IMG/VR virus record: IMGVR_UViG_3300005613_000180
Coordinates: 1 to 38,870 of that record
Strand: one strand, 5' to 3'
From: a virus
Length of the DNA: 38,870 nucleotides
The notes below the pieces were generated by a model. The model did not search any database. It was not told where the DNA came from and worked only from the letters and a program-made list of their open reading frames with translations. Made by a program: the position numbers and the translations under genes. Positions 5,138 through 36,188 of the stretch are shown here, one piece after another; position 1 is the stretch's first letter, and every line of letters begins with the position of its first letter.

Positions 5138-5956
5138 CTAAAGCACAGATTTTCCTGGTCTGAATGCAGACATTGCCTGAGAGGCTAATTTTTGTATGTC
5201 TTCCACAGTGGAATCAAACATAGTTTTTGGTAGTGATCGTTCCACAGGCATCTGTTTTGACGAGGCGTTTTCTCCAGAAGCATATCTTTGCAAAAGACTA
5301 GCAAGTGCTTTCTCGTTGTTTTGATCTTCTACTATCGGCTCGGGGTCTCCTAGATAAAAAGCAGTATTTTCAATCCCTCCCTGAGAAAGACCTAAACCTA
5401 AGCTCTTTAAAAGAGCAGAAACATCAGCTTCGTTTAAACCACTAGATATATTTTCGTCCTTAAGAGGTGCGGGTACATTCGGAGTTGTACGCTGAGTGGT
5501 GGTATACCCAGGATCAACTTGAGGTTGAGTAACCCCAGAAAACTTAGACAACTCCTCAAAGGAACGAACGGGCTGACCGTAATAGCTTTTACCTTCAATA
5601 GTTGGAAGGGAGGCCCATTCGGGAGATAATTTTGCGACAGTTCTAGGATTGATCGGATCTACATCTGGGTCTACGCCACGGCGGCGAATGAGTTCCAGTG
5701 CAGCTGTATCCTGTCTTTCAGGAGACATTGCTCCGCCACCGGTTGATGCCCAGGTGGCAGGCATAAACTGATACGCACCTGCAGCGGCGCTGTTATAGCC
5801 GCCAGCGCTTACAACAGTATCGGGGTGGCGACTTAGATCTTTAAACCTACCTCCACCAAACATAATGTCGTATTGACGACCACCACGATTTGGATCGTAA
5901 GTACCTTCAGCGTATGAGATTAAGTCAAGCCACGCATTTGCGTTAGGGGAAATCAT
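5138..5956 (-). CDS. GH104-type lysozyme with C-terminal tail tag
   Basis: A 272-residue peptidoglycan hydrolase. Residues 8-95 carry the family pattern: LDLISYAEGT with the probable catalytic Glu17, MFGGGRFKDLSRHP, SAGGYNSAAAGAYQF and MSPERQDTAALELIRRRG, as in GH104 lytic transglycosylases and endolysins. After about residue 130 comes a long Pro/Thr/Ser-rich linker, then a C-terminal helix ending QAMSAFRPGKSVL. That last segment recurs at the end of the proteins at 27961 and 35361. There is no signal peptide, so release needs a holin or the enzyme is carried in the virion. The upstream NblA-like gene overlaps its ATG by 4 bases. Confidence 0.85.
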   Translation of the reverse strand: MISPNANAWLDLISYAEGTYDPNRGGRQYDIMFGGGRFKDLSRHPDTVVSAGGYNSAAAGAYQFMPATWASTGGGAMSPERQDTAALELIRRRGVDPDVDPINPRTVAKLSPEWASLPTIEGKSYYGQPVRSFEELSKFSGVTQPQVDPGYTTTQRTTPNVPAPLKDENISSGLNEADVSALLKSLGLGLSQGGIENTAFYLGDPEPIVEDQNNEKALASLLQRYASGENASSKQMPVERSLPKTMFDSTVEDIQKLASQAMSAFRPGKSVL

Positions 5957-6183
5957 TTTTCTGCTTCAAATTCGTCGAATATATCAATATTAGGATCAAC
6001 TATGACTCCTAGTTCGTCGGCAACAGCTTTATAAGCTCTTTCTCTGCACACAAATCGATATATTCGCTGCCATAAGTACTGATCTCGGTCCTTCCCTTTG
6101 AGTTCTCTAGCGTCGTTTCGAATCCGAGTAAGAACAAATTCGTCTTCGAGAGTTAAGGCGAGGGTAAGATGTTCATTTTCCAC
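5953..6183 (-). CDS. NblA-like phycobilisome degradation protein
   Basis: A 76-residue protein. LTLEDEFVLTRI near the start and the later R-x-Y-R-F-V-C-R-E-R-A-Y-K align without gaps to the NblA pattern: L-x-L-E-x-E-F-x-L, then L, then R-E-x-x-Y-K. NblA adaptors deliver phycobilisomes for proteolysis in cyanobacteria, and NblA homologues are known in some cyanophages. Its acidic tail (IFDEFEAEK) is longer than in host NblA. It overlaps the lysozyme start by 4 bases. The match is short and by eye, so a different small helical-hairpin protein remains possible. Confidence 0.5.
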   Translation of the reverse strand: MENEHLTLALTLEDEFVLTRIRNDARELKGKDRDQYLWQRIYRFVCRERAYKAVADELGVIVDPNIDIFDEFEAEK

Positions 6184-6209
6184 GGGGGGGAAGATCCGCT
6201 GACTCTACT

Positions 6210-6494
6210 TTAACTCGCTAAGAGTAGTAGAAAAGGTAACACCGCCCATGCCTTACACGACCAGTAACCTGCAGTCAGTTTTGATTTTTTTTCGTCGCAC
6301 TTGTGTCTAGCTCTGAAACTCTTTCTCCTTTCAGGGTCGTTCTTTTTAATCGTCATATTGGCATCACCAAAGCGCACTAGCTTCACCTTGTCACCTTCTT
6401 TCGCTGCTACGGCAAATTTCTTACCACCCTGCACGTCACGCTTGGGTTTGTTGTAGCCAGAGAACACTTCTCCGGCGAGCCTAATCCTAGCCAT
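6210..6494 (-). CDS. Conserved small cyanophage-type protein with hydrophobic tail
   Basis: A 94-residue basic protein with the pattern KVKLVRFGDANMTIKKN, then R-x-R-H-x-C-D and Y-W-S-C-K-A-W, a combination I associate with small uncharacterised proteins of large cyanophages and giant viruses. The two cysteines and His could bind zinc. It ends in a hydrophobic stretch (AVLPFLLLLAS), which may tether it to a membrane or partner. It starts MARIRLAGE; the small gene at 35151 starts MARVRMAGE. A TATACT box lies 23 bases upstream of the ATG. Confidence 0.6.
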   Translation of the reverse strand: MARIRLAGEVFSGYNKPKRDVQGGKKFAVAAKEGDKVKLVRFGDANMTIKKNDPERRKSFRARHKCDEKKSKLTAGYWSCKAWAVLPFLLLLAS

Positions 6495-6516
6495 CTGTTA
6501 ACACTGCGATAACCTC

Positions 6517-6522
6517 AGTATA
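6517..6522 (-). promoter_or_regulatory. Candidate -10 element (TATACT) for the gene starting at 6494
   Basis: On the minus strand the text reads gagTATACTGAGG about 23 bases before the ATG at 6494. The same TATACTG core precedes starts at 24406, 31811, 33092 and 37311. No good -35 is visible, so it may be an extended -10 or phage-modified promoter. Confidence 0.4.
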
Positions 6523-6627
6523 CTCAATATAAATCTAAAGAAAATAAAAGTAGTTCATTCACTGTTTAATTTCGCGTAAATCCCTGCTAATCTCTTTACG
6601 TTGCGATTACTAAGCACGCAATCTTTC

Positions 6628-6912
6628 ATGGATAGCTTCAAACTTCTGACCATCGCCCAGGCCGCAGAGCACCTGAACTGCTCAACCGGTTTCATCCGAA
6701 AGCGAATCTCTCTTACAGAGGCCAACCAGCCAGGAGGCTGGCCTAAGAACGTCTATGTCAATCTTCAACCCAAGGGAGCCAAGAAACTCTATCGAGTGCG
6801 AAAAGAAGCTCTCGATCAGTATATTTCTGGACAGCTCGAGCAAGCTAAAATGGAGGAGGTTGCAAGCCCTACGTCTTCTGAGGTCTGCAGCACCGGAACC
6901 TGCACTTTCTGA
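6628..6912 (+). CDS. Excisionase-family HTH DNA-binding protein
   Basis: A 94-residue protein starting MDSFKLLTIAQAAEHL. Residues 5-65 match the excisionase-type HTH_17 fold: LLTIAQAAEHLNCSTGFIRKRI, a wing with GWPKNVYVNL, then YRVRKEALDQYI. The ATG at 6628 is preferred to an upstream TTG at 6601 because it begins right at the domain. The tail ends C-S-T-G-T-C, which could be a redox or metal site. It lies 6 bases before the Dps-like gene, so it may regulate that pair. Confidence 0.7.
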   Translation: MDSFKLLTIAQAAEHLNCSTGFIRKRISLTEANQPGGWPKNVYVNLQPKGAKKLYRVRKEALDQYISGQLEQAKMEEVASPTSSEVCSTGTCTF

Positions 6913-6918
6913 TAAGCG

Positions 6919-7458
6919 ATGACTTCTTCTAACCTTCAAGATCTTTTCCAGGCAGCAACAACTGCTCCCACGGAAGAAATTGTCACTGAAGAAGTCGTGC
7001 TCGTAAAAGAAGCGAGCATCGATAACTTTATCTATAAGCTTGTCGAGTTCGCTTCTTACAACTACCAGCTCAATATTCAGGCGCATATGTTGCATCTAAA
7101 TATTGAGGCACCTTTCTTTTTAGCAGTACACAAGTTTCTTAAGAAACAGTACGAGCAGCACGTCGAAGACTTCGACACTCTGGCTGAATTAGTCCGTTCT
7201 ATGGATTACCTCATGCCTATGTGTCAAAAAGGTCTTCTCGGTGCTTGCAAAGGATTTAATAACGTAAAGACTTACGACGCTATTCCTGGTCTCACAACCT
7301 ACATCAAAAACCTAGAAGACGGAGGTTATATGGGAAAAGATCTTGTAACTTTAGCTCGCGAAGTCGAGTGCCCTGACGGCGAAAACGAACTCGCTGAGAT
7401 CGTCAACCACATGTTTAAATCCGCGTGGATGCTTAAGGCTACGCTCCGTAACTCCTAA
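6919..7458 (+). CDS. Dps-like mini-ferritin
   Basis: A 179-residue protein whose residues 35-175 look like a Dps/ferritin four-helix bundle. The spacing of the ferroxidase ligands is kept: H59, H71 (12 later), D86 (15 later) and E90 (4 later), in HLNIEAPFFLAVH and DFDTLAE, against E. coli Dps H51/H63/D78/E82. The extra Asp found four residues after the second His in Dps is Lys75 here, so iron oxidation may be weakened. Dps proteins make 12-subunit cages that oxidise Fe(II) with H2O2 and can coat DNA. A phage copy could protect DNA or handle iron during infection. The N-terminal 30 residues are acidic rather than lysine-rich, so direct DNA binding is less certain. Confidence 0.7.
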   Translation: MTSSNLQDLFQAATTAPTEEIVTEEVVLVKEASIDNFIYKLVEFASYNYQLNIQAHMLHLNIEAPFFLAVHKFLKKQYEQHVEDFDTLAELVRSMDYLMPMCQKGLLGACKGFNNVKTYDAIPGLTTYIKNLEDGGYMGKDLVTLAREVECPDGENELAEIVNHMFKSAWMLKATLRNS

Positions 7459-7946
7459 ATCAAAACCCAAGCAGCGCCGTTGGACATATAGAATGCACCC
7501 GTAGCGGTGTTAAATGCTGCAGACCCTGCAACTCCCACGGGGGGCAATGCACCTGTAAATGTAGTCGCAATTTTTCCTAGGCACTCGTCTGCACTCAACG
7601 CTGTGTCTGCTGTTTGAGCATTACCCGCATTATCAGCAAAACCAGCGCCTACTTTGATCCAAGCAGCTCCATTCCACACTCTGAGGTAATTATTGACTGC
7701 TGTATCTGCCCACAACTCACCAACCGAGTTACCTACTTGACCCTGTGGAGTTGAATTAGGAGCAGTAGCAGAATACTGAGAGCCTCCTACCTTACGAACT
7801 GAATTAGCTGAATCTAGAAAATATAAACCTGGGTCTGCAGCACCAAAGCCGAGAGCTAACTGACCTTGAGTTATAGACGAAGAGAAAGGTCTATCAGATG
7901 CCTGACCAGATCTGAACGAGAGAAGAGTTACAGGAGTTGATGTCAT
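7455..7946 (-). CDS. Fibre/collar-like virion protein
   Basis: A 163-residue protein. GQLALGFGAADPGLYFLDS and NSVGELWADT...LRVWNGAAWIKVG are typical of cyanophage tail-fibre and collar modules; a second degenerate module (AAFNTATGAFYMSNGAAWVLI) closes the protein. The repeated G-x-x-W/F-x-D/N-T then V/Y-x-N-G-A-A-W links it to the fibre-like gene at 54-986. It converges on the Dps-like gene with a 4-base overlap, and its ATG shares one base with the stop of the large virion gene upstream. Confidence 0.75.
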   Translation of the reverse strand: MTSTPVTLLSFRSGQASDRPFSSSITQGQLALGFGAADPGLYFLDSANSVRKVGGSQYSATAPNSTPQGQVGNSVGELWADTAVNNYLRVWNGAAWIKVGAGFADNAGNAQTADTALSADECLGKIATTFTGALPPVGVAGSAAFNTATGAFYMSNGAAWVLI

Positions 7947-9511
7947 TAATAAGTACCTCCGTTGATAGAGGGTCTGAATAACGGAGGTTGGTTGACTCCG
8001 TTTATAAAAGTGCCACCATCATAAATTATTAATGCCCCACTTCCAACTGGGATACCATCTTCGTACTGCCCTCCATCGTACTTAGGTCTATTTTCGGGGG
8101 GAACGGGAATAAGAGGGTTGTATTCGTCAATATCAAACATGGCGAAACCACTAGCTTTTAAAGCAGAAACACCTCCCGATGCAAGAGTGTCAAAGTTTAA
8201 AACTTTAACGACAACAGGGTTCATATCTGAATACAACATATGAGTAGGAGTATCTTCACGAGAAGGAGAATATCTTTCCCACCAGGCGAGGTTGTCAGAA
8301 CGCTTCAAAAACGTCGTCTGTTTATCTAAATTTTTCTGGAAGTATTCTCTGTATTTGGGGTCTAAAGGCTCATCAGAGGGTTGAGCTAAAAACGGAGTAA
8401 TAAAGTCTTGAGACTGAAACCTATTCTGCATATCCCACCACGAGGCATAAATATGTTTGCAAAATTTAGGTTGATAGTAGAAAAGATTAGGATCTGAGTA
8501 ACTCGCTTCCTTTCCGTCTTGATAAGTGGGAAGCCCTAAAAGATTCTTTGTGTATATAAAACCGAAGTCTCTCGCGAAACCTGGTAAATCTCTCGTTTCT
8601 ACAGGTCTATCCCCAGAAAAAGTATTAGTACCCGCATCGTATGTACCAGGTTTTAAATCTTGGACTTTTGTATAAGGATAATTCCTATTTCTTGAGTATT
8701 TATATAAATTAAAATCTTCACGATTTAAATAATCAGGACAGTTGCAACCGAATCGCATAGCTGTCGTAAAAAACTCTCCAGGGGTAGGGTTTAAAGCTGC
8801 AGGACTAGACAGAGAAGAAGTACCAAAAACAGTCCAACTCGTGTCTTTAGTTATGGATATAAAAAGACTATCTTGAAGGGGTATTGGACTAGGAAAGGCA
8901 GGACCGCTTGCTTTAGTTCCAACGCCAACCACTGTGTAGTTGTTGTAAATACTTTTTTCGTTTCCATTTGCATCGAATCGATCTTGTACAACTTCTCCAG
9001 TAAAGAAAGATACTGGAGCACCGAATCTCTGCGATAGCTCTACACCATAAACGCCATTTTCAGCGTCCCAAACGAACACACTCTTAATAGATATACCAAA
9101 GTCAAGAAAATTAAAACTATCGCGAGGACGTATAACGGTCATCCTCATTGCCATATCTTGACTTGTGGACGGGTACATCCAACAAAGACCAGGGAGTTCT
9201 ACGCCTCCTGATCCCGCTTGTCCATTAATCGCATAGCGAAAAGTGTAATTTAAACCAACGTAAGCTTGGTTGGTATACATATAAAGTTCATAACCTCGTC
9301 TCCACCGCGACCACAGGGACGAGTAGTTGTAATCAAAAAGAACACTGAAATCTTTTAAATTAAAGTCTGGTCGAAATCTCTGTTCAAAGGGTTGAGGATT
9401 TGCTAGTTGATAAGCATTCTGAGCGCCTCGAACTGCTCCAAAGCCAAACTTGCTTTGTTTCGGTTGGAAGTCTCTAAACCCCCATTGATCCGACCCCTTT
9501 TTTCGTGCCAC
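7946..9511 (-). CDS. Large virion structural protein with SWIM-like Cys/His motif
   Basis: A 521-residue protein rich in aromatic residues and beta-structure signals, in the structural operon. It carries C256-N-C258-P-D-Y and, 93 residues later, C351-K-H353-I-Y-A, the two halves of a SWIM zinc finger (C-x-C then C-x-H) split by a long insertion. It ends S-I-N-G-G-T-Y, like the C-termini of the proteins at 54 and 9515. It is probably a tail or baseplate component. The zinc site is inferred from residue spacing only. The start MARKKGSDQWGFRD lies 3 bases after the upstream stop. Confidence 0.65.
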   Translation of the reverse strand: MARKKGSDQWGFRDFQPKQSKFGFGAVRGAQNAYQLANPQPFEQRFRPDFNLKDFSVLFDYNYSSLWSRWRRGYELYMYTNQAYVGLNYTFRYAINGQAGSGGVELPGLCWMYPSTSQDMAMRMTVIRPRDSFNFLDFGISIKSVFVWDAENGVYGVELSQRFGAPVSFFTGEVVQDRFDANGNEKSIYNNYTVVGVGTKASGPAFPSPIPLQDSLFISITKDTSWTVFGTSSLSSPAALNPTPGEFFTTAMRFGCNCPDYLNREDFNLYKYSRNRNYPYTKVQDLKPGTYDAGTNTFSGDRPVETRDLPGFARDFGFIYTKNLLGLPTYQDGKEASYSDPNLFYYQPKFCKHIYASWWDMQNRFQSQDFITPFLAQPSDEPLDPKYREYFQKNLDKQTTFLKRSDNLAWWERYSPSREDTPTHMLYSDMNPVVVKVLNFDTLASGGVSALKASGFAMFDIDEYNPLIPVPPENRPKYDGGQYEDGIPVGSGALIIYDGGTFINGVNQPPLFRPSINGGTY

Positions 9512-9514
9512 TTA

Positions 9515-10069
9515 TCAATAGAATCCGCCTTGGGCTAACCAGGTCACACCAGATCCACTCAAGCCACCAGAAACTGCGTTAGGGCCATTACCTAAGTAAC
9601 CAACACAGAGAATGTAACCTTTTTCGAGATATAAGCCTTCCATTTTGCCGAACTCGATAGGTCGAGCAAGGTTGGTGTCGCCCACACCGGGCACAGGGGC
9701 ATTAGTAGCAGGAAGTTCAATCCGTTGAATTAAGCCTTCAGTTCCTCCTGACAACCCAACCTCAAACTTTCCAAGCAGCATCGCAGCTGATGTAGAAGGA
9801 GCTGCCTGGTTAGGAGCATATACATAGATACCAAAAGCTGAAGTGTAGAGTCCACCATTATCGGGATAACCTTCGTTAGAGACCACGAAGATATCTTCGA
9901 CTAAAGCAGCGTCTTCGGAAGGGATGTCTCCCACACGGACGAGTTGGATGAGACTCCCAAAGTCAGGATTAGCTGGACTAACCGTGGGCGTGCCGTCGTT
10001 AAACCGAGCACCCCTTAAAAAGGGGCGATCGATCATTAATGGTTGCTTGTTGGTGCTGGTAGATGCCAC
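9515..10069 (-). CDS. Virion structural protein
   Basis: A 184-residue protein with beta-rich text (GLYTSAFGIYVYAPNQ, AMLLGKFEVGLSG) and no enzyme motif. It resembles small head/tail-surface proteins of cyanophages in composition and ends AQGGFY, the third member of the GG-x-Y C-termini. It lies 3 bases upstream of the large virion gene and 40 bases downstream of the previous one, so it is co-transcribed. The exact role is unknown. Confidence 0.6.
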   Translation of the reverse strand: MASTSTNKQPLMIDRPFLRGARFNDGTPTVSPANPDFGSLIQLVRVGDIPSEDAALVEDIFVVSNEGYPDNGGLYTSAFGIYVYAPNQAAPSTSAAMLLGKFEVGLSGGTEGLIQRIELPATNAPVPGVGDTNLARPIEFGKMEGLYLEKGYILCVGYLGNGPNAVSGGLSGSGVTWLAQGGFY

Positions 10070-17514: not shown

Positions 17515-18417
17515 TCAGGCTCCTTCCATGAACAAGAGCTTGGAGCGCATTGCCTCAGGACCCATGTTTTGCAGGTAACGCCAAGCGTTTTCGGGATTAC
17601 GGTTCATCACTTCACCGAAAGTGTCCCATTGCTGCTGAGGAGCGGCTTGGACTTGCTGACCACCAACGTTTGCAGGGGGAGCAGGCATGTCGTAAGTCTG
17701 CTGATAAGCCGTAGGAGCCACGGTGGGCTCATCGATATCAACGGGATACACTTCAGTGAAGAAACGATCGGTGTAATCAGCCAAGTGGTCAGGGTTGGTG
17801 AGGATGGTTTGCATCGCACCAGCACGCTCGTTAAGGGCGTCATAACGAGTTGCCTGATCAATCAGCATGTCCTCAAGGGCACAGGAATACTGATTGAGAA
17901 TTCCAGGTGCTTCGAGTCCGAAGTGATTAACGACCTCTGCGCTTACCGCGCTGAGTTGGGGTGCCGTAGAAGCCTGAGAGGAACCCTGGGTCGGTGAGGC
18001 GCTGGTAGACGAGATCGGCGCTGCCTGCTGTTCCTGGTAAGCCCAGGGCTGGGCCTGTAAAGGCTGACTCTGTGGTTGAGTAACCGTCGCGGGAGCCTGG
18101 CTGGGCGACCACTGAGTCTGGCTGGGGGATTGAGATGGCAAAGTCTGAAGCACCCGCTCCAGGCTGCCCATCGCCGACTCCCACGGATTGGTCGGGGAGG
18201 ATTGCGACGTTAACGGGTTGAACTGGTTGCTGGTAGTAGGCTCCGTAATTGGAGCTACCTGCTGAGGCTGTTGGACTGTAGGTGCCGAAGCTACCGCCGG
18301 GGTAGCCCCCTGTGCTACCCACTGCGGGTAGGCGGTTGAGCCCTGGTCGTTGGTTACCGCCGGGGCTGCCGCCGGGGAGACCGGGCTCGGGGTCGAAGCT
18401 TGGATCTGCTGGCTCAT
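17515..18417 (-). CDS. Probable scaffolding protein, 5' half overprinted on portal gene
   Basis: A 300-residue protein between portal and capsid genes, the usual place for a scaffold. Residues 1-160 are Pro/Gln/Ser/Thr-rich and disordered. Residues 165-235 are helical (VVNHFGLEAPGILNQYSCALEDMLIDQATRYDAL, in parts), and the C-terminus (NPENAWRYLQNMGPEAMRSKLLF) forms a short helical cap like scaffold capsid-binding tails. Its first 163 codons lie inside the portal gene, read +1 relative to it. A terminator follows at once. Start MSQQIQAS is an ATG; an internal start after the overlap is possible but none stands out. Confidence 0.65.
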   Translation of the reverse strand: MSQQIQASTPSPVSPAAAPAVTNDQGSTAYPQWVAQGATPAVASAPTVQQPQQVAPITEPTTSNQFNPLTSQSSPTNPWESAMGSLERVLQTLPSQSPSQTQWSPSQAPATVTQPQSQPLQAQPWAYQEQQAAPISSTSASPTQGSSQASTAPQLSAVSAEVVNHFGLEAPGILNQYSCALEDMLIDQATRYDALNERAGAMQTILTNPDHLADYTDRFFTEVYPVDIDEPTVAPTAYQQTYDMPAPPANVGGQQVQAAPQQQWDTFGEVMNRNPENAWRYLQNMGPEAMRSKLLFMEGA

Positions 18418-20143
18418 AGCTACCCGAGTAGGTTAATTCTTCCGCGAGATGATCGAACGTCCTGTACAGGAGCGGAGTGATATTCAGTCTAGGATCAGCC
18501 GCTAATGGTTGATCAGGCGCAAGAGGATGCGGAGACTGCAACATCTGGCTTAATAATACCAGAAATTGCTGCATTGCTGCTTGGGTTTGTTGAACCATTC
18601 GGAAAGGAAAACCCTGCAACATTTCCGCCCTTTCGCTGTCAGTTTTCTCAGGAAATAAGAACTTCAGTGCTTCAACACTATCCACACCTAGTTCTTGTAA
18701 ATTCCTGACGACGATTGACTTTTGGTTTATATCGTATGCAGTATCTTCATACACATCGCCTTGGAAGCGATAAGAGACATCACGGTCGCCGTCCTCAGGT
18801 AAACCCACGACACCGGGCGGTACTTTGTTTTCTGCAAGGGCTTTCCGCATTGCAGCATCCACTTTCTGCTCAAAGCGGATGATTGCTTTTTGATACTTTT
18901 CAAGAGATTCAGGTTCTGCATCCTTAGGTGGGTTGGGTTCTTTCATACCTGAAGCGGCAATAAAAGATTCTCTAAAGATCTGCTCTTGATGATAAATAAT
19001 CATCTCCAACAAACGGCAAAAACCGTAAGTTAAAAACGACTTATTTTTCCTTAGAGCAGTCGCTTGTGCTCGACCCATGAGACCTTTGATCTCAGTCGCC
19101 GTTGCACCTGCTGAGATAGAGATTTCATCAACACCGCCAAGCGCAGTGCGGATTTCTTCCCGCAAAAGAAGCGCATAGCGATTCATATCGCCACTAACTG
19201 GATCAGGGGTCATGTAACCCACACGATCTGTGGGCTCCACGTTCGCAATAATACGAGGGACACGTAGTCCTCCTCCCATTGCAGCGCCAAAAGGCTCACT
19301 AACCCTTGTTGAAGGGGTATCGGGACCTGAAAAACCGCTCTGACTGCTAATTGTGGGCCTAAATCCACTTTGAGCGTCGTTGGCTTCTACAAGATCACTG
19401 CGTGGACGCGAACTAATCAGCGTTGGGTTGCCGAAAAACTCGATATTTTTAGCAACATTGCGAATAATTTGATCATGAAGAACAATTTGCTCCATGAACG
19501 GGTCAAATTCACCCTCTCCCTCAGTTCCACTAGCGTTTGGCTTGTTTAAAACCTCAACAGCTGGAACAAAACCGAGTGTATTAGGTCTTGTCTTAGCAGG
19601 ACTAAGAACGCTTCCTGGTTCAAGCTCAAAACTAAGCTCAGTATCGGCCTCTACTTCGTTGATCTCGTCAGCTGTGATCGCCAGACGCACATATCTTTTA
19701 TTTTGACCATAGGTATCGGAAGGTAATCCGAGATTATTGTTCTTAACCTTGTAGCTATAGAGAATAACGACTTCCTCAACGTCGCCATTTAAGTCGTGAT
19801 AAACACGATATTGGTTTTTGTTGAAAAAATAGATTTGATACTTAAGTTTTTTATCTGGTCGAAAGTAAAAAAGACCACAACCGTCGATTAAAAAGTTCCG
19901 AATAATCGCCGGGAAGCGAATATCTAGCTTATTAAGAGTGATGAGGTTGTTAATAAACCTATTTCTTCCTTTGTAAGTGTCCTGATCGCAGTAAAAAGTT
20001 AGACCCTTTTTGATCATCAAAAGGGTCATTTGTTGGATGTGGCTAAGCACAACCATTGTGGCGGATTGATTCGATCGATCCTGAGTCCTAGCGGCCTCAA
20101 GAACCTCTTCGTACCTATTCCTTGTTTCGATTTGAGACGACAT
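17927..20143 (-). CDS. Portal protein with long disordered tail
   Basis: A 738-residue protein. Residues 1-560 read as a phage portal: a helical N-terminus (TLLMIKKGLTFYCDQD), FLIDGCGLFYFRPD, a central ISAGATATEIKGLMGRAQAT segment and long C-terminal helices (RLLEMIIYHQEQIFRES). It forms the dodecameric DNA channel of the head and docks terminase. After about residue 576 the text becomes Gly/Pro/Ser/Gln-rich and ends TQRGKRRGR. This 163-residue tail shares its DNA with the scaffold N-terminus in another frame. Upstream is a 50-residue charged protein. Confidence 0.9.
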   Translation of the reverse strand: MSSQIETRNRYEEVLEAARTQDRSNQSATMVVLSHIQQMTLLMIKKGLTFYCDQDTYKGRNRFINNLITLNKLDIRFPAIIRNFLIDGCGLFYFRPDKKLKYQIYFFNKNQYRVYHDLNGDVEEVVILYSYKVKNNNLGLPSDTYGQNKRYVRLAITADEINEVEADTELSFELEPGSVLSPAKTRPNTLGFVPAVEVLNKPNASGTEGEGEFDPFMEQIVLHDQIIRNVAKNIEFFGNPTLISSRPRSDLVEANDAQSGFRPTISSQSGFSGPDTPSTRVSEPFGAAMGGGLRVPRIIANVEPTDRVGYMTPDPVSGDMNRYALLLREEIRTALGGVDEISISAGATATEIKGLMGRAQATALRKNKSFLTYGFCRLLEMIIYHQEQIFRESFIAASGMKEPNPPKDAEPESLEKYQKAIIRFEQKVDAAMRKALAENKVPPGVVGLPEDGDRDVSYRFQGDVYEDTAYDINQKSIVVRNLQELGVDSVEALKFLFPEKTDSERAEMLQGFPFRMVQQTQAAMQQFLVLLSQMLQSPHPLAPDQPLAADPRLNITPLLYRTFDHLAEELTYSGSYEPADPSFDPEPGLPGGSPGGNQRPGLNRLPAVGSTGGYPGGSFGTYSPTASAGSSNYGAYYQQPVQPVNVAILPDQSVGVGDGQPGAGASDFAISIPQPDSVVAQPGSRDGYSTTESAFTGPALGLPGTAGSADLVYQRLTDPGFLSGFYGTPTQRGKRRGR

Positions 20144-26663: not shown

Positions 26664-27190
26664 CTCTTTTCTTCTCGCTCAATCGTGCTCCAAATAACCA
26701 GCGATGCCTCTTCCAAGAGAGACAGCATCGCTGGGACATCCTCAAACGAATTATTCAACTCACGTAGACAACGATCCGCGCCAGCAAGTAAAAGGCCACG
26801 GCGATCAACACCGTCCGTGAGTTGTCTGACCGCCTGGATGTGGGACCTAAGTTCTTTCTGAAGGACTGAAATTTTTGTTGCTGCCGTGGCATAGTCAAGC
26901 ATCCCAGTAGATGTCATCTGCCTGACGTTATCCAGATCAAGCTTAAGAGAATCGATCTCAATCAATAAAACCTTTCGGAGGTCTTCTTTGGGGTATTTTT
27001 CTTGAACATAAGCTGTCAAGTCTGAAATAGAGCCCTTATAGCCAGGTTTTAAAAACCTCGCATACAAAAAAGCTTCGATATCGCTAACGCTATTTTTGCA
27101 GTAATAGGTGAAAGCGTCTTTCTGCGTTTTATCGAGCGAATCAAGCCACGAACCAACCGTGGTTGAATCTCCAATTGTTGACTTGATCAT
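26660..27190 (-). CDS. Helical protein, candidate terminase small subunit
   Basis: A 176-residue helical protein. The N-terminal part (TQKDAFTYYCKNSVSDIEAFLYARFLKPG, in pieces) plus YVQEKYPKED may form an HTH. The central ILQKELRSHIQ-type helices suggest an oligomer. Position near internal virion genes and helix layout fit a TerS, but the motif is weak and TerL is 2.3 kb away across a plus-strand operon. It converges with the GH130-like gene by 4 bases. Confidence 0.4.
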   Translation of the reverse strand: MIKSTIGDSTTVGSWLDSLDKTQKDAFTYYCKNSVSDIEAFLYARFLKPGYKGSISDLTAYVQEKYPKEDLRKVLLIEIDSLKLDLDNVRQMTSTGMLDYATAATKISVLQKELRSHIQAVRQLTDGVDRRGLLLAGADRCLRELNNSFEDVPAMLSLLEEASLVIWSTIEREEKS

Positions 27191-27957
27191 GCGAAAGCTC
27201 GTGTGCCTGCAAGCGCTTGGTTAGCTCCGAAGCGCTTCATAGCGAGCTGCGCTTTGGTTTGACCTTGAATTTGAGCTAGCTGAGACTTTGTGTTTGCGTT
27301 AATTTTGGCAAGATCTCCAAGTGTTCGTGCTTCGGTGAGTCTTAAATTCGACTCAAGGGTTTGAGCGCCACGGGCTAAAAGTCCTTCTGTGGCAGCACGA
27401 TCAGAGAAAACATCACCGTAAGTGTTCGCTTGGTCAAGGGCTGCATTTGCAGCAGCACTTTCTTGCGCTGAACGAATACCAAAATTTGTTGTAGCTAAGC
27501 CTCTAGCAAGATCATTCTCGCCTGTCAAAGCGGATGAACCCGCTTGGGCTAAGAAATTTGGTCCTGCTAATTCAACTCCAATACGACTGTTCGCAAGTTG
27601 AGTTGCTAATAAATTTCCTGCTTTAAAAAGGTTTGTAATTTCAGAAGCTTGAGTATTAGTTCTTGCTTTGAGATCGTTAGCAGAAGAAGCTAACTGAGTT
27701 AATTGGCCAGAGGAAAGTTGACTTGCTTCGAGCCCAAGGGAACCAAAAAGAGCACCAAGACCTAATGCGTAATTCTGCTGAGCTGCAGTAACCTTTGCGT
27801 TCTGAGCAGCCGCCTCAGCTGAGTCTCTAATTAAGTCATTCTGTCGTTGCGATACTCCTCCACCTCCACCACCACCGAAGGAATTAATCAGACTCCCGAT
27901 ACCACCTGCTGCTGATCCAACAGCACTAATCCCACCTAAGATTCCAGTAAGAGACAT
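27187..27957 (-). CDS. Alanine-rich internal/ejected virion protein
   Basis: A 256-residue protein. The N-terminus is Gly-rich and hydrophobic (LTGILGGISAVGSAAGGIGSLI, then a seven-glycine run), compatible with membrane insertion. The rest is Ala/Gln/Asn-rich helix (about 45-250), as in podovirus internal core proteins. The start overlaps neither neighbour but lies 3 bases from the previous stop. It is read with two further likely internal proteins (27961 and 28629). Function inferred from composition. Confidence 0.6.
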   Translation of the reverse strand: MSLTGILGGISAVGSAAGGIGSLINSFGGGGGGGVSQRQNDLIRDSAEAAAQNAKVTAAQQNYALGLGALFGSLGLEASQLSSGQLTQLASSANDLKARTNTQASEITNLFKAGNLLATQLANSRIGVELAGPNFLAQAGSSALTGENDLARGLATTNFGIRSAQESAAANAALDQANTYGDVFSDRAATEGLLARGAQTLESNLRLTEARTLGDLAKINANTKSQLAQIQGQTKAQLAMKRFGANQALAGTRAFA

Positions 27958-27960: not shown

Positions 27961-28629
27961 TCACCTTCCTCCTGGGAATACAGATTTTCCAGGCTGGAAT
28001 GCAGCCATGACTTGCCGCTGCGAAGGTCCTAAAGCGGATAGCACATTCGCGTTTGGCGTCCCTGCAATGTATGCAGTTTGAGCGAGTTGCGTGGCCATAA
28101 GAGTGTCGCGCATAATTTGTGCTTTTTCTATCTCTTTCCACGAGCGGATGTTTTCCAGCTCAAGTTCCCGCTGGCTCTTCTCTCGGCTCTTAGCGAGAGC
28201 AGCTGCTTCTGAAAGTGCTAGCTTTTCTTTGTATAACTGTAAGTTTAAATCTGCTTCGAATTTACGTCTTTCCTCAGACGTGGTCTGTTTCAGTATGTCG
28301 AGAAGATCCGAAGGAATGCCTCGTAAAACAGCTTCACTTGCTTCTCGTGAAGGTCCTGGTGCTTGAGTGCTTCCAGTGGTTTCAACAGCGGGGATCGGAA
28401 AGCGACCACCGGCAGTAACATCGGGATAGTTTGAAGGATCGTTAGGGTTTGGTGGTTCTATATCAGCATCTTCCCTACGAGGTGGTTCTGGAGCATAACT
28501 CAGCTCTGGCTTATCTGATTGACCTTTTTTGTCGTCAGAAGAAAGCCCATAAGACAGGTTGGGACCCGCGAGGCGACCCAAGCCTTTCAGAAAATCAAGA
28601 AGAAAATTGGTTTCTTTGGTTTCCTCCAT
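27961..28629 (-). CDS. Coiled-coil virion protein with shared C-terminal tail tag
   Basis: A 222-residue protein: a short hydrophobic start (FLLDFLKGLGRLAG), a Pro-rich acidic linker (about 35-95) and a long charged coiled coil (about 110-175, ERRKFEADLNLQLYKEKLAL and onward). It closes SQRQVMAAFQPGKSVFPGGR. The QPGKSV part matches the ends of the lysozyme at 5138 and the M23-like protein at 35361, and the DNA there is also similar to the lysozyme (acagattttcc then ggaatgcag). It may hold a hydrolase-docking site or be docked by the same partner. Non-enzymatic. Confidence 0.6.
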   Translation of the reverse strand: MEETKETNFLLDFLKGLGRLAGPNLSYGLSSDDKKGQSDKPELSYAPEPPRREDADIEPPNPNDPSNYPDVTAGGRFPIPAVETTGSTQAPGPSREASEAVLRGIPSDLLDILKQTTSEERRKFEADLNLQLYKEKLALSEAAALAKSREKSQRELELENIRSWKEIEKAQIMRDTLMATQLAQTAYIAGTPNANVLSALGPSQRQVMAAFQPGKSVFPGGR

Positions 28630-31001: not shown

Positions 31002-31040
31002 TCGATGTCAGAATAGTGGCACTATAACAGTTTTTCGGTA

Positions 31041-31811
31041 TTAAAACCCTAAATGTTTTTTCCTCACAAACTCAAGATCATAGGTTGTAAAGCTTTTGGG
31101 GAATGAAGGTTCGTTAAAAGGATGATCGTACGTTTCTTCATCCACGTGGGCTTGCCAGCCAGGACCCCACTTCATCGTGACGTACTTCTTATTTAATTCG
31201 TGCGCGAGGTGTATACCCTGAGCAATAGCAGGTTCTGAGCGCCAAGTCTGAGAACCATCGCTGTAGTCGTTTTTCTTAGTTCCGTGGTAGTAACCTGACT
31301 TCATAGATAGCACTCGTTTTACATCGTCCTTAATAAACCTCATGCCCATTTCGAGGTCCTCAACATACGCAGGGTAAAGTTGCTCGTCAAATAACCCATA
31401 ACGCATGATCATCCAATCTTTAATCGCGAACACGTCCCAGCCACCACCAGAGCCATGAGCAGTACCCACTTCAGGGTCAGCCATAGCCTCTGCCATTTCT
31501 TCGAGGAAGCCTGGTTCGTACATAACGTCGTGGTTACTAATCAACCACCAAGGCGACTTCATGAAGCACTTAATAATTAGATTCCACGCGCCAGAGCAAC
31601 CTACGTTCGCTGGGAGGTGGCAAACATGGACCTTTTTGACAAATCGATTTGGGATCTCTTTAATCAATTCAACTTCGTGGGTGATCTGACCCCTTCCGTT
31701 GTTATTGAAAACAACAAAATTGTCCACCGGATAATCGATGGACATATAGAGCCTATGGAGCCAGTAAGGGGTATTGACAATTGCTGTGCCAAGAACAGGA
31801 ATTGAGTTCAT
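31041..31811 (-). CDS. GT2-like glycosyltransferase
   Basis: A 256-residue GT-A enzyme: MNSIPVLGTAIVNTPYWL, VGCSGAWNLIIKCFM and the metal motif S-N-H-D-V-M (about 92-97), then V-E-D-L-E-M-G-M-R-F as the base/acceptor region. These correspond to bacterial and phage family-2-type enzymes that build surface polysaccharide or modify virion proteins. A TATACT box lies 19 bases upstream. The DxD is reduced to N-H-D, which still can hold metal. Confidence 0.75.
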   Translation of the reverse strand: MNSIPVLGTAIVNTPYWLHRLYMSIDYPVDNFVVFNNNGRGQITHEVELIKEIPNRFVKKVHVCHLPANVGCSGAWNLIIKCFMKSPWWLISNHDVMYEPGFLEEMAEAMADPEVGTAHGSGGGWDVFAIKDWMIMRYGLFDEQLYPAYVEDLEMGMRFIKDDVKRVLSMKSGYYHGTKKNDYSDGSQTWRSEPAIAQGIHLAHELNKKYVTMKWGPGWQAHVDEETYDHPFNEPSFPKSFTTYDLEFVRKKHLGF

Positions 31812-31829
31812 AGCTTTTACGTTTATGTC

Positions 31830-31835
31830 AGTATA
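31830..31835 (-). promoter_or_regulatory. Candidate -10 (TATACT) for the GT2-like gene
   Basis: The minus-strand text tagTATACTGACATAA lies about 19 bases before the ATG at 31811, using the same TATACTG core seen at other gene starts. No clear -35 is visible. Confidence 0.4.
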
Positions 31836-32288
31836 CTACTTCATTAAAAGACCAACTTCTAATTTTTTAATTCCGTCTTTGTACTGGTATTGGTAAAGAT
31901 TACAATCAGCTGAATCAGCTGAAAAAGCCTCTGGGAGATCGAATGAACAAACTCGTTTGTGCTTCTTTAAACTGCAGTGAGCGCAGGTGTAACACTTAAA
32001 GTCACTACGTGTTCGATCTTTCTTATCTATGAATCCCATGTCTTTTGCATTAAAATATTCACCCGCCAGCTTCTGAAACTTAGAGAAGCCTTCACGAGAT
32101 CTTTCTAAACTTTTAAATTCTTCGAGCGAGATCTCTATAGTGGTTTCTCTGTGGCCGCAGTCACTATTGGTGCATTGGCGTCTGCGGCGGACAGAACCAT
32201 TTACATTCCTTGTCGTTTCAATAGTGATTAAGCGGCCTTCGTGACATTTGTCGCAAACCAGCTCAGATTGGGCTCGATGTTGTTTCAT
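31836..32288 (-). CDS. Two-module zinc-binding protein
   Basis: A 150-residue protein. N-terminal module: C12-x-x-C15 and C39-x4-C44 with RRRRQCTNSDCGHRETT, resembling the NrdR or Ogr-type zinc ribbon, but without the ATP-cone domain of NrdR. C-terminal module: C99-x-x-C102-x-x-C105 and C114 and C129. It begins 13 bases after the tRNA-Leu and is likely co-transcribed with it. It may bind nucleic acid; phage transcription activators of the Ogr group have similar ribbons. Confidence 0.65.
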   Translation of the reverse strand: MKQHRAQSELVCDKCHEGRLITIETTRNVNGSVRRRRQCTNSDCGHRETTIEISLEEFKSLERSREGFSKFQKLAGEYFNAKDMGFIDKKDRTRSDFKCYTCAHCSLKKHKRVCSFDLPEAFSADSADCNLYQYQYKDGIKKLEVGLLMK

Positions 32289-32301
32289 AGTTTTGAGTGA
32301 T

Positions 32302-32390
32302 TGGTGCCTGAGGAGGGACTTGAACCCTCACGACCTTTGCGGGTCAACGGATTTTAAGTCCGGCGCGTCTACCGATTCCGCCACTCAGGC
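32302..32390 (-). tRNA. tRNA-Leu (UAA)
   Basis: Minus strand: acceptor GCCTGAG pairs with CTCAGGC, followed by discriminator A and an encoded CCA. The anticodon loop CTTAAAA gives UAA, which reads UUA. A long variable arm (class II, as expected for Leu) and GGTTCAA T-loop are present. The outer anticodon-stem pair is a C-U mismatch. A TATTCT box lies about 23 bases upstream. Confidence 0.92.
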
Positions 32391-32412
32391 TTAAAGGCAA
32401 AAGCCTTGTGGC

Positions 32413-32418
32413 AGAATA
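32413..32418 (-). promoter_or_regulatory. Candidate -10 (TATTCT) upstream of tRNA-Leu
   Basis: The minus-strand text agTATTCTGCC falls between the stop codon of the zinc-ribbon gene and the tRNA, 23 bases before its 5' end. It shares the box-plus-G form with the other candidate promoters. No -35 is identified. Confidence 0.35.
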
Positions 32419-32622
32419 CTACTTCTTTGAGTCGCTTTTAGCCTTTTTTGCTTTCCTCGCTTTATTAATGTTGTGTTTACCTGAGCACTCGTAACCACAG
32501 AAGGGTCCGGGCATCGATGCCTTCTTACTCTTTTTATTTAACCAACTTTTTAACTTGGCTCCTCTAAGCGTAAACGCTTTGTGGCACTGAGGGCATTTGT
32601 ACCACACCTCTTTGGGGTTCAT
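32419..32622 (-). CDS. Small zinc-ribbon protein
   Basis: A 67-residue, very basic protein. C10-P-Q-C13 and F-C42-G-Y-E-C46-S-G-K-H form a treble-clef-type site like those in HNH nuclease partners and transcription-associated ribbons, with a Lys/Ser/Ala tail (KARKAKKAKSDSKK). It probably binds nucleic acid. It is the gene just upstream of tRNA-Leu on the same strand. No endonuclease residues are seen. Confidence 0.6.
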   Translation of the reverse strand: MNPKEVWYKCPQCHKAFTLRGAKLKSWLNKKSKKASMPGPFCGYECSGKHNINKARKAKKAKSDSKK

Positions 32623-32681
32623 ACGTCTTGCGTGTTGCGGACACAGTATGCGCTATAAAACTCTAAGTAACAACCCCTGCC

Positions 32682-32996
32682 TCACATGTCATATACGGGG
32701 TAGTAAGCATTCGCCCATTTCTTGCAAGCGACAGTGTCGTAGCGGCCATGCTTCTCCATTTGAGAAACCTTGCACTTCTGAACTAACCGCTCAAATCCTT
32801 GCTTTTTGGCGGCATAAGTTTCATTGTATTTTTTTTCTTTTTCCGCCCACGAGTTGAAAAAGCTAAAGAGCATCAGTAAGAGAACGATTTTCCATACATT
32901 TCCGATAACGATTTTCAAAAGCTCGGGGCTTTTCCAAACAGCGGCAGCACCGATGATGTGTTTTCCGTTGACTTTTAGGTCCAAGTTGGAAGTCAT
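32682..32996 (-). CDS. Small single-pass membrane protein
   Basis: A 104-residue protein starting MTSNLDLKVNGKHI; I prefer the ATG at 32996 to an upstream one at 33035 because the natural N-terminus begins there. One hydrophobic helix (LLKIVIGNVWKIVLLLMLFSFF, in parts) is followed by a charged coiled region and two cysteines (KCKVSQ, VACKKWANAYY). It could be a spanin-like or other lysis accessory, but it lacks a lipobox and signal peptidase site. Confidence 0.55.
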   Translation of the reverse strand: MTSNLDLKVNGKHIIGAAAVWKSPELLKIVIGNVWKIVLLLMLFSFFNSWAEKEKKYNETYAAKKQGFERLVQKCKVSQMEKHGRYDTVACKKWANAYYPVYDM

Positions 32997-33067
32997 AGTG
33001 TTGTTCTTGTGACTTAGTAAGCATACAGCATACAAAACTGTTTTGCAACCCCCGAAAAAGCTGCTAC

Positions 33068-33073
33068 TATACT
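33068..33073 (+). promoter_or_regulatory. Candidate promoter for the methyltransferase operon at 33092
   Basis: TATACT (33068-33073) lies 18 bases before the ATG, and TTGCAA (33043-33048) lies 19 bases upstream, the same 19-base spacing seen at 24378. The spacing is longer than the usual 17. Confidence 0.45.
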
Positions 33074-33091
33074 GGCAACTTCTAAATTCTT

Positions 33092-33814
33092 ATGTCCTCC
33101 AAGTTCAAAGAGCTTATGCAACAGCTGGGAACAGAAGACGTAAAGGTAAACGCTCCTCAAGGTCAACCTCAAGGGGTCCCAGTAACTGTTGAGAATAAGA
33201 AAAAACTCGACGATCGCTATACGTTTAACCAAGGGTGGTATGACGCCCTTCTTAATACCGAAGCGATTGTCAATGAGAGAGAAGAATTAGAAATTTTCCG
33301 TTTAGATCCCTCCAAAAAACGTCAGATTGTCGAAATCGGGGTTTACGAAGGCGCATCCAGCTGTTTCTGGAGTGATTTTTACCTTGATCATCCCGAATCA
33401 CGCTTGATCTCTATCGATCCGTTTACTGGAAGCGAAGAGCACCACGAAAATCCTCAAAATTATCCAGAATTAGAGAATATTGAATTAACAGCTCGCGGAA
33501 ATATCGCGAAGTCCAAAAATGCCGCCAAAGTCTCAATACTTAAGGGTTTTTCACAGTTCGTATACAAAGACCTTATCCTCGAAAACGGTGACCTTCCATG
33601 GATTGACCTCCTATACATTGATGGGGCACATGATTCTACCTCTGTTGCGCGTGATGTTTGCATGTATGTTCCTCTGGTTAAGTCTGGCGGCGTTGTAATT
33701 TTTGATGATTACGCCCATCCCGATGTCCGTAGGGCAGTCGATATGGCTCTAAATGCATTCGCCACAGCGGAAAAGGCGGCATTCACTGGTTGGCAGTTGA
33801 TCGTTAAGTTCTAG
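33092..33814 (+). CDS. Class I SAM-dependent methyltransferase (Methyltransf_24-like)
   Basis: A 240-residue enzyme: V-E-I-G-V-Y-E-G-A-S (about 86-95) as motif I, I-S-I-D-P-F (about 108-113), L-L-Y-I-D-G-A-H-D (about 171-179) and V-V-I-F-D-D-Y-A-H-P, the pattern of Methyltransf_24 proteins that act on glycans or small molecules. The N-terminal 50 residues are variable. It is followed after 2 bases by the YkgJ-type gene, so they form one operon. The second methyltransferase in this window (30315) is from the same broad group. Confidence 0.75.
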   Translation: MSSKFKELMQQLGTEDVKVNAPQGQPQGVPVTVENKKKLDDRYTFNQGWYDALLNTEAIVNEREELEIFRLDPSKKRQIVEIGVYEGASSCFWSDFYLDHPESRLISIDPFTGSEEHHENPQNYPELENIELTARGNIAKSKNAAKVSILKGFSQFVYKDLILENGDLPWIDLLYIDGAHDSTSVARDVCMYVPLVKSGGVVIFDDYAHPDVRRAVDMALNAFATAEKAAFTGWQLIVKF

Positions 33815-33816
33815 TT

Positions 33817-34176
33817 ATGGGTTTTCCTTGCACCCAGTGCGGCATCTGCTGCCGTTCCGTTGGTTTGTGGCTAAAAGAAACCGAAAACCAGCAGGAGCCT
33901 GCATTTAAATATGCGATGGAAACTTTTCCCTATAAAACCGACGAACTTGGAGTCTGCGAAAAGTTCATATCCGAGGGAGATCATCCGGGTTGCTCTGTCT
34001 ACGAAGATAGACCTCTGTTATGTGACTCGGACAAAATGGCTGTTCTCATGGGAATACAACCAGAGGAACTATATAAACTCAATGCCATAATGTGTAACTA
34101 CATGATTCGGGCTGCCGGTTTACCGGCAAGTTATCTCATCGACGAAGATCAGTTCAACGGCTCTGCCACAGAATAA
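33817..34176 (+). CDS. YkgJ-type cysteine-cluster (metal-binding) protein
   Basis: A 119-residue protein with the signature P-C5-x-x-C8-G-x-C11-C12, C47, G-C59-S-V-Y-x-D-R-P-x-x-C69 of the YkgJ/CxxCxxCC family (zinc or iron chelating). Family members are often partners of oxygenases or methyltransferases and occur widely. The gene directly follows the methyltransferase (stop and start 2 bases apart). Role unknown; a metal-dependent modification with its neighbour is one possibility. Confidence 0.8.
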   Translation: MGFPCTQCGICCRSVGLWLKETENQQEPAFKYAMETFPYKTDELGVCEKFISEGDHPGCSVYEDRPLLCDSDKMAVLMGIQPEELYKLNAIMCNYMIRAAGLPASYLIDEDQFNGSATE

Positions 34177-34250
34177 TATCCACAAGCTCGCCTGATATAT
34201 TGGCTTCTTTTCTTTCACTTTTTTGCACTCCCCCTGTCCCTTTACCCATT

Positions 34251-34269
34251 GTTAACCTGTTCTTAACTT
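34251..34269 (+). promoter_or_regulatory. Weak two-copy Pho-box-like repeat
   Basis: GTTAACCT-gtt-CTTAACTT has the 8+3 spacing of the cyanobacterial Pho box, with a G instead of a pyrimidine at the first position. It lies between convergent genes, so there is no obvious downstream target on the plus strand. Confidence 0.25.
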
Positions 34270-34281
34270 TGGCCCTGGGTT

Positions 34282-34518
34282 TTATTCTCTTCGTCCAGTC
34301 CCAAGCAAACTTAACACTGTCGCCGTCGCGATCCCAAACAAATTTTCCGTGCGACTTCCTAGCTTAGGACATGTGTTTGCCATCGTCGCTTCTTCCTTGG
34401 TTTCTATTACATTTGCACATTTAATAAAACTAAAGCCCAACAACACAAACTGACAAAAGAACACTGCCACGAGTGCCCTCAACAAAAAGACTTCCCTCCT
34501 GAATGGAGAGTTAGCCAA
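34282..34518 (-). CDS. Small membrane protein, holin-like
   Basis: A 78-residue protein with two hydrophobic helices (FLLRALVAVFFCQFVLLGFSF and LFGIATATVLSLLG, in parts) around a C-P-K-L-G-S-R-T-E-N turn. The pattern C-A-N, acidic, then C-P-x-x-x-x-R-x-x-x-x-F recalls small proteins near lysis or virion genes of cyanophages. It overlaps the upstream gene by 8 bases. A second holin or antiholin is possible. Confidence 0.5.
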   Translation of the reverse strand: MANSPFRREVFLLRALVAVFFCQFVLLGFSFIKCANVIETKEEATMANTCPKLGSRTENLFGIATATVLSLLGTGRRE

Positions 34519-35146
34519 ACCTCTTTCTTAGGATATCTTCTTGTGCGCCACGAAGAGCCTCACGGAGTCGATCGCTTTTAATGCTTTCATAACCTCCGAC
34601 TGGCCCCATCTGAGCCATCGCCCGATCTAATGCACTGACCGCATTACGTTCTACAGCATCTACTTCATTCATAGGGTTCCCACCCGTGGCCACTGCAGGA
34701 ACTGGGGAAGATACAGGCACTGGAGTATCAACAGTGGCTGGACCTGTTTCCCTTGCTGCTCGTGGTGGGATTACATCTACATCCGTTTCAGACCGCCTTG
34801 GCGGTGTTTCAGACAAAGTTGCAGTAGGAACTTGACCTGGCTGAATCCCACGCTCAAGGAGTTTTCGATCCTCCTCACGCGCTTTTCTCAACATTTCGTC
34901 TTCCCCTGCATTTACAGGGTTATACATATCCGCACCGATCAAAGCGCCAACAGGCATTAAAACCGGATTGGGTGCGGACAATGCACCATACATAGCGCCG
35001 CGAATAGGATCAGGAAGATTTAACTTATCTGCAACAATATCCGCAGCAGCTCCATAAAGGAGACCGCCTCGTACTCCAAGAGGATTTAGAAGTCTCTTCG
35101 GATCTTGATAGATCCTACGAGGATCTAACCAGCGTGGAAATTCCAT
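34511..35146 (-). CDS. Virion-associated protein of unknown function
   Basis: A 211-residue protein. The first 80 residues are amphipathic and hydrophobic in part (GVRGGLLYGAAADIVADKL; LMPVGALIGADMY); the middle is Pro/Thr/Val-rich linker; the end is helical and basic (LREALRGAQEDILRKRFG). Composition matches internal or ejected proteins. Transcribed with the M23-like and metalloprotease genes. Not recognised. Confidence 0.5.
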   Translation of the reverse strand: MEFPRWLDPRRIYQDPKRLLNPLGVRGGLLYGAAADIVADKLNLPDPIRGAMYGALSAPNPVLMPVGALIGADMYNPVNAGEDEMLRKAREEDRKLLERGIQPGQVPTATLSETPPRRSETDVDVIPPRAARETGPATVDTPVPVSSPVPAVATGGNPMNEVDAVERNAVSALDRAMAQMGPVGGYESIKSDRLREALRGAQEDILRKRFG

Positions 35147-35150
35147 TTAA

Positions 35151-35336
35151 TTAGCGAGGTGCGCGAACACCCATCATCTGGTTACCGCCGGTTTCGATCA
35201 TCATGTTGCGAAACCCTTCGGTATCAGCTTCCTTACGAGGACCGCTACCGGGCATTTGCTCGTTGCCTTGACGCATTTCATTGCGCTTGGCTCTGCGATT
35301 CTTCATTTTCTCGCCAGCCATGCGAACGCGAGCCAT
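35151..35336 (-). CDS. Small Met/Arg-rich protein with MARxRxAGE start
   Basis: A 61-residue protein starting MARVRMAGEKMKNRRAKR and ending MMGVRAPR, with many Met and Arg. The N-terminus matches that of the gene at 6210 (MARIRLAGE). It lies 4 bases upstream of the next virion gene and 24 after the M23-like gene, so it is in the same operon. It is likely nucleic-acid-binding from charge, otherwise unknown. Confidence 0.5.
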   Translation of the reverse strand: MARVRMAGEKMKNRRAKRNEMRQGNEQMPGSGPRKEADTEGFRNMMIETGGNQMMGVRAPR

Positions 35337-35360
35337 AACCTTTATACCAATATGCCTTAA

Positions 35361-36188
35361 TTATAAAACAGACCGTCCAGGTTTAAAGCTTGACATCGCT
35401 TGCTGTGCTAATTCAGCGATCATATTTGAAGTCCTCTGTGTTTCAGTAATACCGGCTTGCTGAATCTCTTTTTCCACGGGGTTAGCTTGACGTTGTTTTC
35501 TCTCACTTACCACTTGTCTTAACGCTTGTTCAATTCGACTGGTATCACTGTCCTCGCTAGATATAGGGGCTGGGTCAGTTCCACTAAAATCAGACGCTCC
35601 CTTCGCTGAAGCCATCAAACCACTTAAAAGGTTAGTCAAAACAGTGGACCTAGTCGATCCATCGGACTTAGTCGAGTAATTATCGATCCGAGCCACATCA
35701 CCCTGGTACTCAGATCCCCAAACAGGTGCGGGTTTTTCCGATGATGGCGTACTCGTTTGCGTGGGAGGTGCAGAAAGATTCGCACTGGACACCGCAGCAC
35801 CACTCAAAACCTTATTTTTCGGGCTTCCATGCAAAAGAAGCGCCTCATACGTCTTTCCGTTGCGTTCAAAAGCATATTGGGACATGATACCGCCCCCTTT
35901 ATCGCGAAAAGTCGTTAAATAACGACCTCCAACGACTTCAACTGGCGTATTTTCAGGCGTGGCGTAATCTAAACCCTTGTGAAACCGCGAAGCTCCAGGG
36001 ATACCAGTGTCGCGTGGGCCATATCCACTGGTTTGACGATACAGATCGACTAAGGGCTTGTCTCCAACGCGCAAAACATCCTCAAAACCACGCGGGTCGA
36101 TGTAGTCACCGACTTCTGGGTCGTAAATACGAAAATCTAAATGTGGACCAGAGCCAACTCCAGTAGCGCCAGTGTAGAAAACAGACAT
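35361..36188 (-). CDS. M23-like peptidase in permuted order, with shared tail tag
   Basis: A 275-residue protein. Residues 10-33 (G-S-G-P-H16-L-D18-F-R-I, then GDYIDPRGF) match what normally ends an M23/LytM domain (G-P-H-L-H-F then D-P). They are followed by S-R-F-H70-K-G-L-D74-Y-A-T-P and L-L-L-H120-G, which normally begin and continue the domain, so the halves are swapped. The usual second His of H-x-H is Asp18. If active it would cut peptide cross-links of peptidoglycan. A Ser/Pro linker leads to the tail SFKPGRSVL, shared with the lysozyme at 5138. It is probably virion-borne. Confidence 0.7.
   Translation of the reverse strand: MSVFYTGATGVGSGPHLDFRIYDPEVGDYIDPRGFEDVLRVGDKPLVDLYRQTSGYGPRDTGIPGASRFHKGLDYATPENTPVEVVGGRYLTTFRDKGGGIMSQYAFERNGKTYEALLLHGSPKNKVLSGAAVSSANLSAPPTQTSTPSSEKPAPVWGSEYQGDVARIDNYSTKSDGSTRSTVLTNLLSGLMASAKGASDFSGTDPAPISSEDSDTSRIEQALRQVVSERKQRQANPVEKEIQQAGITETQRTSNMIAELAQQAMSSFKPGRSVL

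Follow-up and report, generated by a model that had tools for sequence, protein, structure and literature searches.

Three proteins encoded by the virus record IMGVR_UViG_3300005613_000180 (positions 1 to 38,870; this stretch of 38,870 bases is referred to here as the window), a lysozyme, a coiled-coil protein and an M23-like peptidase, end with a common short tail. Similar tails, spelled in a genome-specific way, are found on seven kinds of protein in a group of widespread, mostly uncultured phages related to a cyanobacterial virus. We propose, with a probability of roughly 0.55, that the tail is a docking peptide by which a fast-evolving, phage-encoded partner recruits the hydrolases and the coiled-coil protein, most likely to the virion. 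The observation of the first-pass annotation, that three window proteins have this ending in common, is real and larger than first described.

Results

The portal (43-47%), terminase (50-53%) and head protein (60%) correspond to orthologues of Synechococcus phage S-EIVl (S-EIV1; KJ410740), and the M23 peptidase and several more genes are likewise orthologous. The window portal (17927..20143, minus strand; phrog_20475, 5.6e-166), a marker of this lineage, is 47% identical to that of S-EIV1. Judged by these genes, the window virus is a member of the S-EIV1 cyanophage lineage. Portal relatives are encoded on 276 viral contigs; the tail families were gathered from about 150 contig groups, and entire relatives were also read. 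A search of isolated phages (50,697 phage records) with one member of the coiled-coil family returned no relative.

All three tailed genes lie on the minus strand of the window. The first (5138..5956) encodes a lambda-R-type, lytic transglycosylase-like lysozyme of 272 aa (phrog_90 endolysin, E=1.2e-25; tail HMM, 6.5e-10), which has both the family profile and the conserved glutamate, E17 in an EGT motif, invariant in 10 relatives; it ends with QAMSAFRPGKSVL (5141..5179). The second (27961..28629) encodes a coiled-coil protein of 222 aa without a match in Pfam or PHROGs, belonging to a family without known relative that is present in most tail genomes and several members of which have Gly/Ala-rich hydrophobic N-termini. 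Its tail, QVMAAFQPGKSVF (27976..28014), is followed by PGGR, so that the ORF end reads QVMAAFQPGKSVFPGGR. The third (35361..36188) encodes the M23-like peptidase of 275 aa, 33% identical to the S-EIV1 'peptidase M23', with the tail QAMSSFKPGRSVL at 35364..35402. When the last 24 residues of the 51 window ORFs were compared all against all, the three tail pairs ranked as the top three (scores of 66, 48 and 43), the next-best of the 1275 pairs scoring 29. A six-frame scan of the whole window for the motif, which had been suggested as a check, found no further ORF end carrying it, and the motif arose once in 200,000 trials with shuffled ends. The lysozyme and the M23-like protein also have a longer, weak C-terminal likeness (30% over 134 aa), while the likeness of the coiled-coil protein to the other two is limited to the short tail.

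Overlapping DNA signals were considered as a source of the tail and rejected: read directly from the DNA, only the PGGR codons and stop of the coiled-coil gene (27961..27975) hold the likely Shine-Dalgarno sequence, AGGAGGAAGG, of the next gene (ATG at 27957), and the lysozyme and M23-like tails both stop ahead of separate downstream leaders. That next gene (27187..27957, minus strand) encodes a Gly/Ala-rich protein, a putative candidate partner of the tail, which is found in 16 of the 17 relatives examined and was not detected in S-EIV1. Conserved ends of their own are seen on this protein and on that of 4552-5106, and on their relatives (ALAGTRxFA; LMSYSSY), and these may be further docking ends. 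Adjoining the M23 gene, 36197-37135 (minus strand) encodes a weak M78/IrrE-like metallopeptidase match (Pfam, 0.0028; phrog_87, 6e-4).

Across the relatives, the tail takes the form [F/Y]-x-x-[P/G]-x-[S/P]-[V/T/L]-[I/V/L/F], preceded by a short helix and placed at the C-terminus or a few residues before it; coiled-coil tails often carry 1-5 extra residues after the motif. A profile of the tail matches 31 contig groups at E<1e-3; because it was built from part of the matched sequences, the scores of those sequences are not independent, and L196, L172, L105, L107, L068 and L215 are among the matches not used in building. The carriers comprise the lambda-R lysozyme, glycosidases of other types that occupy its gene slot, the permuted M23 protein and its probable degenerate relative, the HIDLK protein, as well as the coiled-coil protein and small proteins. 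Elsewhere among the 6663 ORFs of about 150 contig groups the tail is hardly seen: at E<1e-3, the seven families aside, only G018 (a protein of 126 aa) and L004 (a split lysozyme) gave a match. In L004 (9905-10835), the lysozyme is in one frame and the tail in another that overlaps it, for which a contig frameshift is the simplest reading. An unbiased C-terminal comparison recovered the same gene families, with other spellings, in most clade members. In five of five further genomes, outside the sample, in which a coiled-coil protein and a lysozyme were both found, both were tailed; of the 1596 C-terminal pairs in G031 this one ranks first, and the two spellings agree only partly in G039 and G041. 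The first-pass annotation had named tail-less homologues in related phages as a refuting observation. Most homologues within the clade keep the tail; in two clade members, G011 and G016, the hydrolase in the lysozyme slot is tail-less, and outside the clade the tail is absent, S-EIV1 and sister-clade contigs being without it.

The protein parts ahead of the tail are exchangeable. In the lysozyme slot, lambda-R-type, SLT (PF01464, 4e-28), SLT_3 (PF18896, 1e-11) and glycosidase-like (L169) catalytic domains are all followed by the tail, and two proteins with dissimilar heads, SLT in G008 and lambda-R in G003, are 53% identical over the last 103 residues. In many genomes the M23 gene is replaced by an HIDLK relative without HxGxD, which is also tailed. 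Catalytic heads are exchanged, and the C-terminal part is retained.

The M23 domain itself looks circularly permuted. In the window protein (35361-36188) and in L333, L332, L248, L243 and others, the strand VGSTGxSTGPHxHF, which comes last in a normal M23 domain, comes first, and a PDB profile comparison matched 3slu in swapped order (query 61-147 to 213-302, query 8-38 to 311-338). Of the zinc motifs, HKGLD is present, and HxH, on the N-terminal strand, reads HLD (HxD in the window clade). A scan with the single window protein found no relatives. The HIDLK family, without HxGxD (L144:16371-17207, minus strand, and relatives; also T4-like cyanophage S-WAM2, 7396-7941, 40%), is probably a degenerate relative of the permuted M23 protein. 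AlphaFold2 (AF2) predicts for the coiled-coil protein one helix at 119-189, a second at 194-210 and then a flexible tail, and for the M23-like protein a domain at 1-130, a disordered linker at 131-213, a helix at 249-267 and a flexible tail; the mean pLDDT is 68, and good prediction is limited to the helices and the M23 domain. Foldseek returned nothing significant with either model, a sequence-order search being ill-suited to reveal a permutation.

Within a genome, the tails of different families resemble one another. Examples are G001 (AFTAGKSVI, AFQGGKSVI, AFKPGASVL), G008 (SFTTPSSVI, SFGTPKSTI, GFSAPKSQI, SFETPKSTI), G014 (NYQMGKSVL, AYKMGSSVLK) and G017 (SFATPKSII, QYKTPKSVI, GYGTPTSVL, SFKEPRSVI). 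The cross-family similarity within a genome was 26.2, compared with 19.9 ± 1.1 when genomes were shuffled within families; no value as high was reached in 10,000 permutations, one in 10,000 with one genome per lineage and none in 10,000 with the last 9 residues only and one genome per lineage, figures which, the genomes being related, are not exact probabilities. Common descent within each family does not, on its own, explain why lysozyme tails look like coiled-coil tails. At identical residues of 42 within-genome tail pairs, codons agreed in 35% of cases, compared with 33% expected and 37% between genomes; since codons agree at chance only, the likeness is one of peptide and not of DNA, and a recent copying or gene conversion of tails was rejected on this ground. 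The recent duplication that the first-pass annotation had read from the window, between the lysozyme and coiled-coil tails, is not supported: their DNA is identical at 28 of 39 positions, but third positions agree at only 7 of 13. Among close relatives, pN/pS is 0.21 for the tail and 0.24-0.29 for the remaining protein, which indicates that the tail is under purifying selection, not clearly stronger than elsewhere in the proteins.

The tail is not a general hydrolase ending. A separate GH24 endolysin is encoded by nine of the ten relatives larger than 43 kb, the exception being G014, and none of the GH24 ends read in eight genomes carries it. By eye, the tailed SLT_3 protein of G014 and G015 starts with a Sec-like signal peptide, and no signal peptide was seen on tailed lambda-R-type lysozymes. 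Both L156:2853-3710 and L185:5197-6021 encode SLT_3 proteins that carry the tail and a Sec-like signal peptide (MKLYSLLASLLFAFPLGAMANS).

The M23/HIDLK and slot-hydrolase genes of S-EIV1 and sister contigs lie inside the structural module. Ends of sister-clade M23 and slot-hydrolase proteins resemble each other above chance (2/5000), a score to which a single group of near relatives (L277, L296-L303) probably contributes most, so that a shared ending across the sister clade is only suggestive in these sequences. In that group, L298:1284-2018 and L298:3554-4237, as well as L277, L296, L299, L301 and L303, have LG[VI]xxNP[ML]S on an HIDLK protein and on an unrelated glycosidase-like protein; sister lineages may use other spellings, such as this one in L296-L303.

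Discussion

The earlier suggestion of a docking signal recognised by one partner has gained good indirect support from the occurrence of the tail in about 30 contig groups, on unrelated and swapped domains and in genome-matched spelling, and from a GH24 endolysin that is without it. We propose the following hypothetical scenario, in which (i) the tail serves as a docking peptide; (ii) in each virus, a single fast-evolving, phage-encoded partner would read it; (iii) rapid change of this partner would make all tails of a genome shift together; (iv) through the tail, several peptidoglycan hydrolases would join an internal coiled-coil protein in one assembly; (v) this assembly would most likely be part of the virion, at the portal vertex or in an internal core; and (vi) the wall-cutting enzymes would travel in the particle and may aid DNA entry. 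A partner encoded by the phage is proposed because the spelling is genome-specific. A partner search by gene presence returned too many clade-specific genes to single one out. Recruitment to the virion is the most economical destination, since the carriers are wall hydrolases other than the presumed GH24 endolysin and a helical protein, and since the corresponding genes of S-EIV1 and its sisters lie among structural genes. Counting against the scenario are the tail-less slot hydrolases of G011 and G016, the partial match of the two spellings in G039 and G041, the Sec-like signal peptide on the tailed SLT_3 protein of G014 and G015, and a tail pN/pS close to that of the remaining protein. We consider somewhat less probable, and hold tentatively, the broader notion of a modular, genome-specific C-terminal address code, in which a co-evolving receptor would direct any tailed protein, swapped peptidoglycan hydrolases included, to a single internal assembly site; if so, cargo would be freely exchanged while the code drifts.

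Other explanations account for part of these observations. The tails might bind one another or the coiled-coil protein, as a co-assembly element without a separate receptor, which would likewise make the tails of a genome co-vary. The coiled-coil protein is itself tailed and has a long helix, and a helix precedes each modelled tail; however, the tail is unstructured in the AF2 single chains, and we regard this arrangement as unlikely. Still less likely is a late action at the envelope, in which wall enzymes and an envelope protein, instead of entering virions, would be gathered by the tail in a lysis complex. The Gly/Ala-rich hydrophobic N-termini of several coiled-coil proteins would fit such a complex, and in G014 the signal peptide on the SLT_3 protein, together with the lack of a GH24 endolysin, suggests that the tailed protein there may act in lysis. 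However, a dedicated GH24 endolysin, tail-less where read, is retained in most of the large genomes with the tail, and the tailed lambda-R-type lysozymes lack a signal peptide recognisable by eye.

Two further explanations appear very improbable. Many tails end in S-x-hydrophobic, and such C-termini resemble PDZ ligands, which could point to a host factor, such as a PDZ-type protease or a chaperone, as the reader of the tail, but genome-specific spelling is unexpected with one conserved host factor, and the residues that often follow the motif on coiled-coil proteins (1-5) also argue against it. Nor does the tail behave as a functionless, recently copied or gene-converted piece of DNA: the longer likeness between the lysozyme and the M23-like protein makes an old duplication of the C-terminal region likely for those two, but synonymous codons agree at chance level, selection is purifying, the tail survives head swaps and the coiled-coil protein has the tail alone in common with them.

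With regard to known systems, the docking peptide that we propose, being a short tag at one end of phage proteins that otherwise differ, resembles the capsid targeting sequence (CTS) of T4, a tag on internal proteins that suffices to carry foreign proteins into the head (PMC3012670, PMC9024508, PMC5694885), and the signal of P1 DarB. However, the DarB signal is N-terminal (PMC9024508), and the T4 CTS is an N-terminal propeptide of 10-20 residues removed by the prohead protease (PMC5694885), whereas the tail is C-terminal in all carriers, and the proteins it marks are wall hydrolases and a coiled-coil protein. Within the conserved tail, the window proteins also have no Glu, the residue after which the T4 CTS is cleaved by the prohead protease. 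Encapsulin cargo peptides are, like the tail, short C-terminal peptides on different enzymes, and are bound by an HK97-fold shell of viral origin; their consensus, SDGSLGIGSLKRS (PMC8346489), is unlike [FY]xx[PG]x[SP][VTL][IVLF], and the setting of the tail is a phage. The tail belongs to none of these tag classes, because either position or sequence fails; if our reading is right, it would work like the T4 CTS or the encapsulin cargo peptides, but it is related to neither. A virion-borne SLT domain is found in the internal virion protein family phrog_342, which is among the matches of the G008 SLT head; there, a large internal protein includes the hydrolase domain (the profile has 1235 positions), in contrast to the small tailed enzymes. 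S-EIV1, despite sharing orthologues of the portal, terminase, head protein and M23 peptidase with the window, is without the tail. A literature search for shared C-terminal virion tags returned no matching paper.

The tail helps to annotate hydrolases of unclear role as probable virion enzymes and could be used to load foreign proteins into phage heads. To our knowledge, the route of small enzymes into tailed-phage virions is known for few systems, such as the T4 CTS and P1 DarB. A co-varying C-terminal tag on exchangeable enzymes opens the question of virion entry to direct tests in a lineage for which hundreds of contigs have been sequenced.
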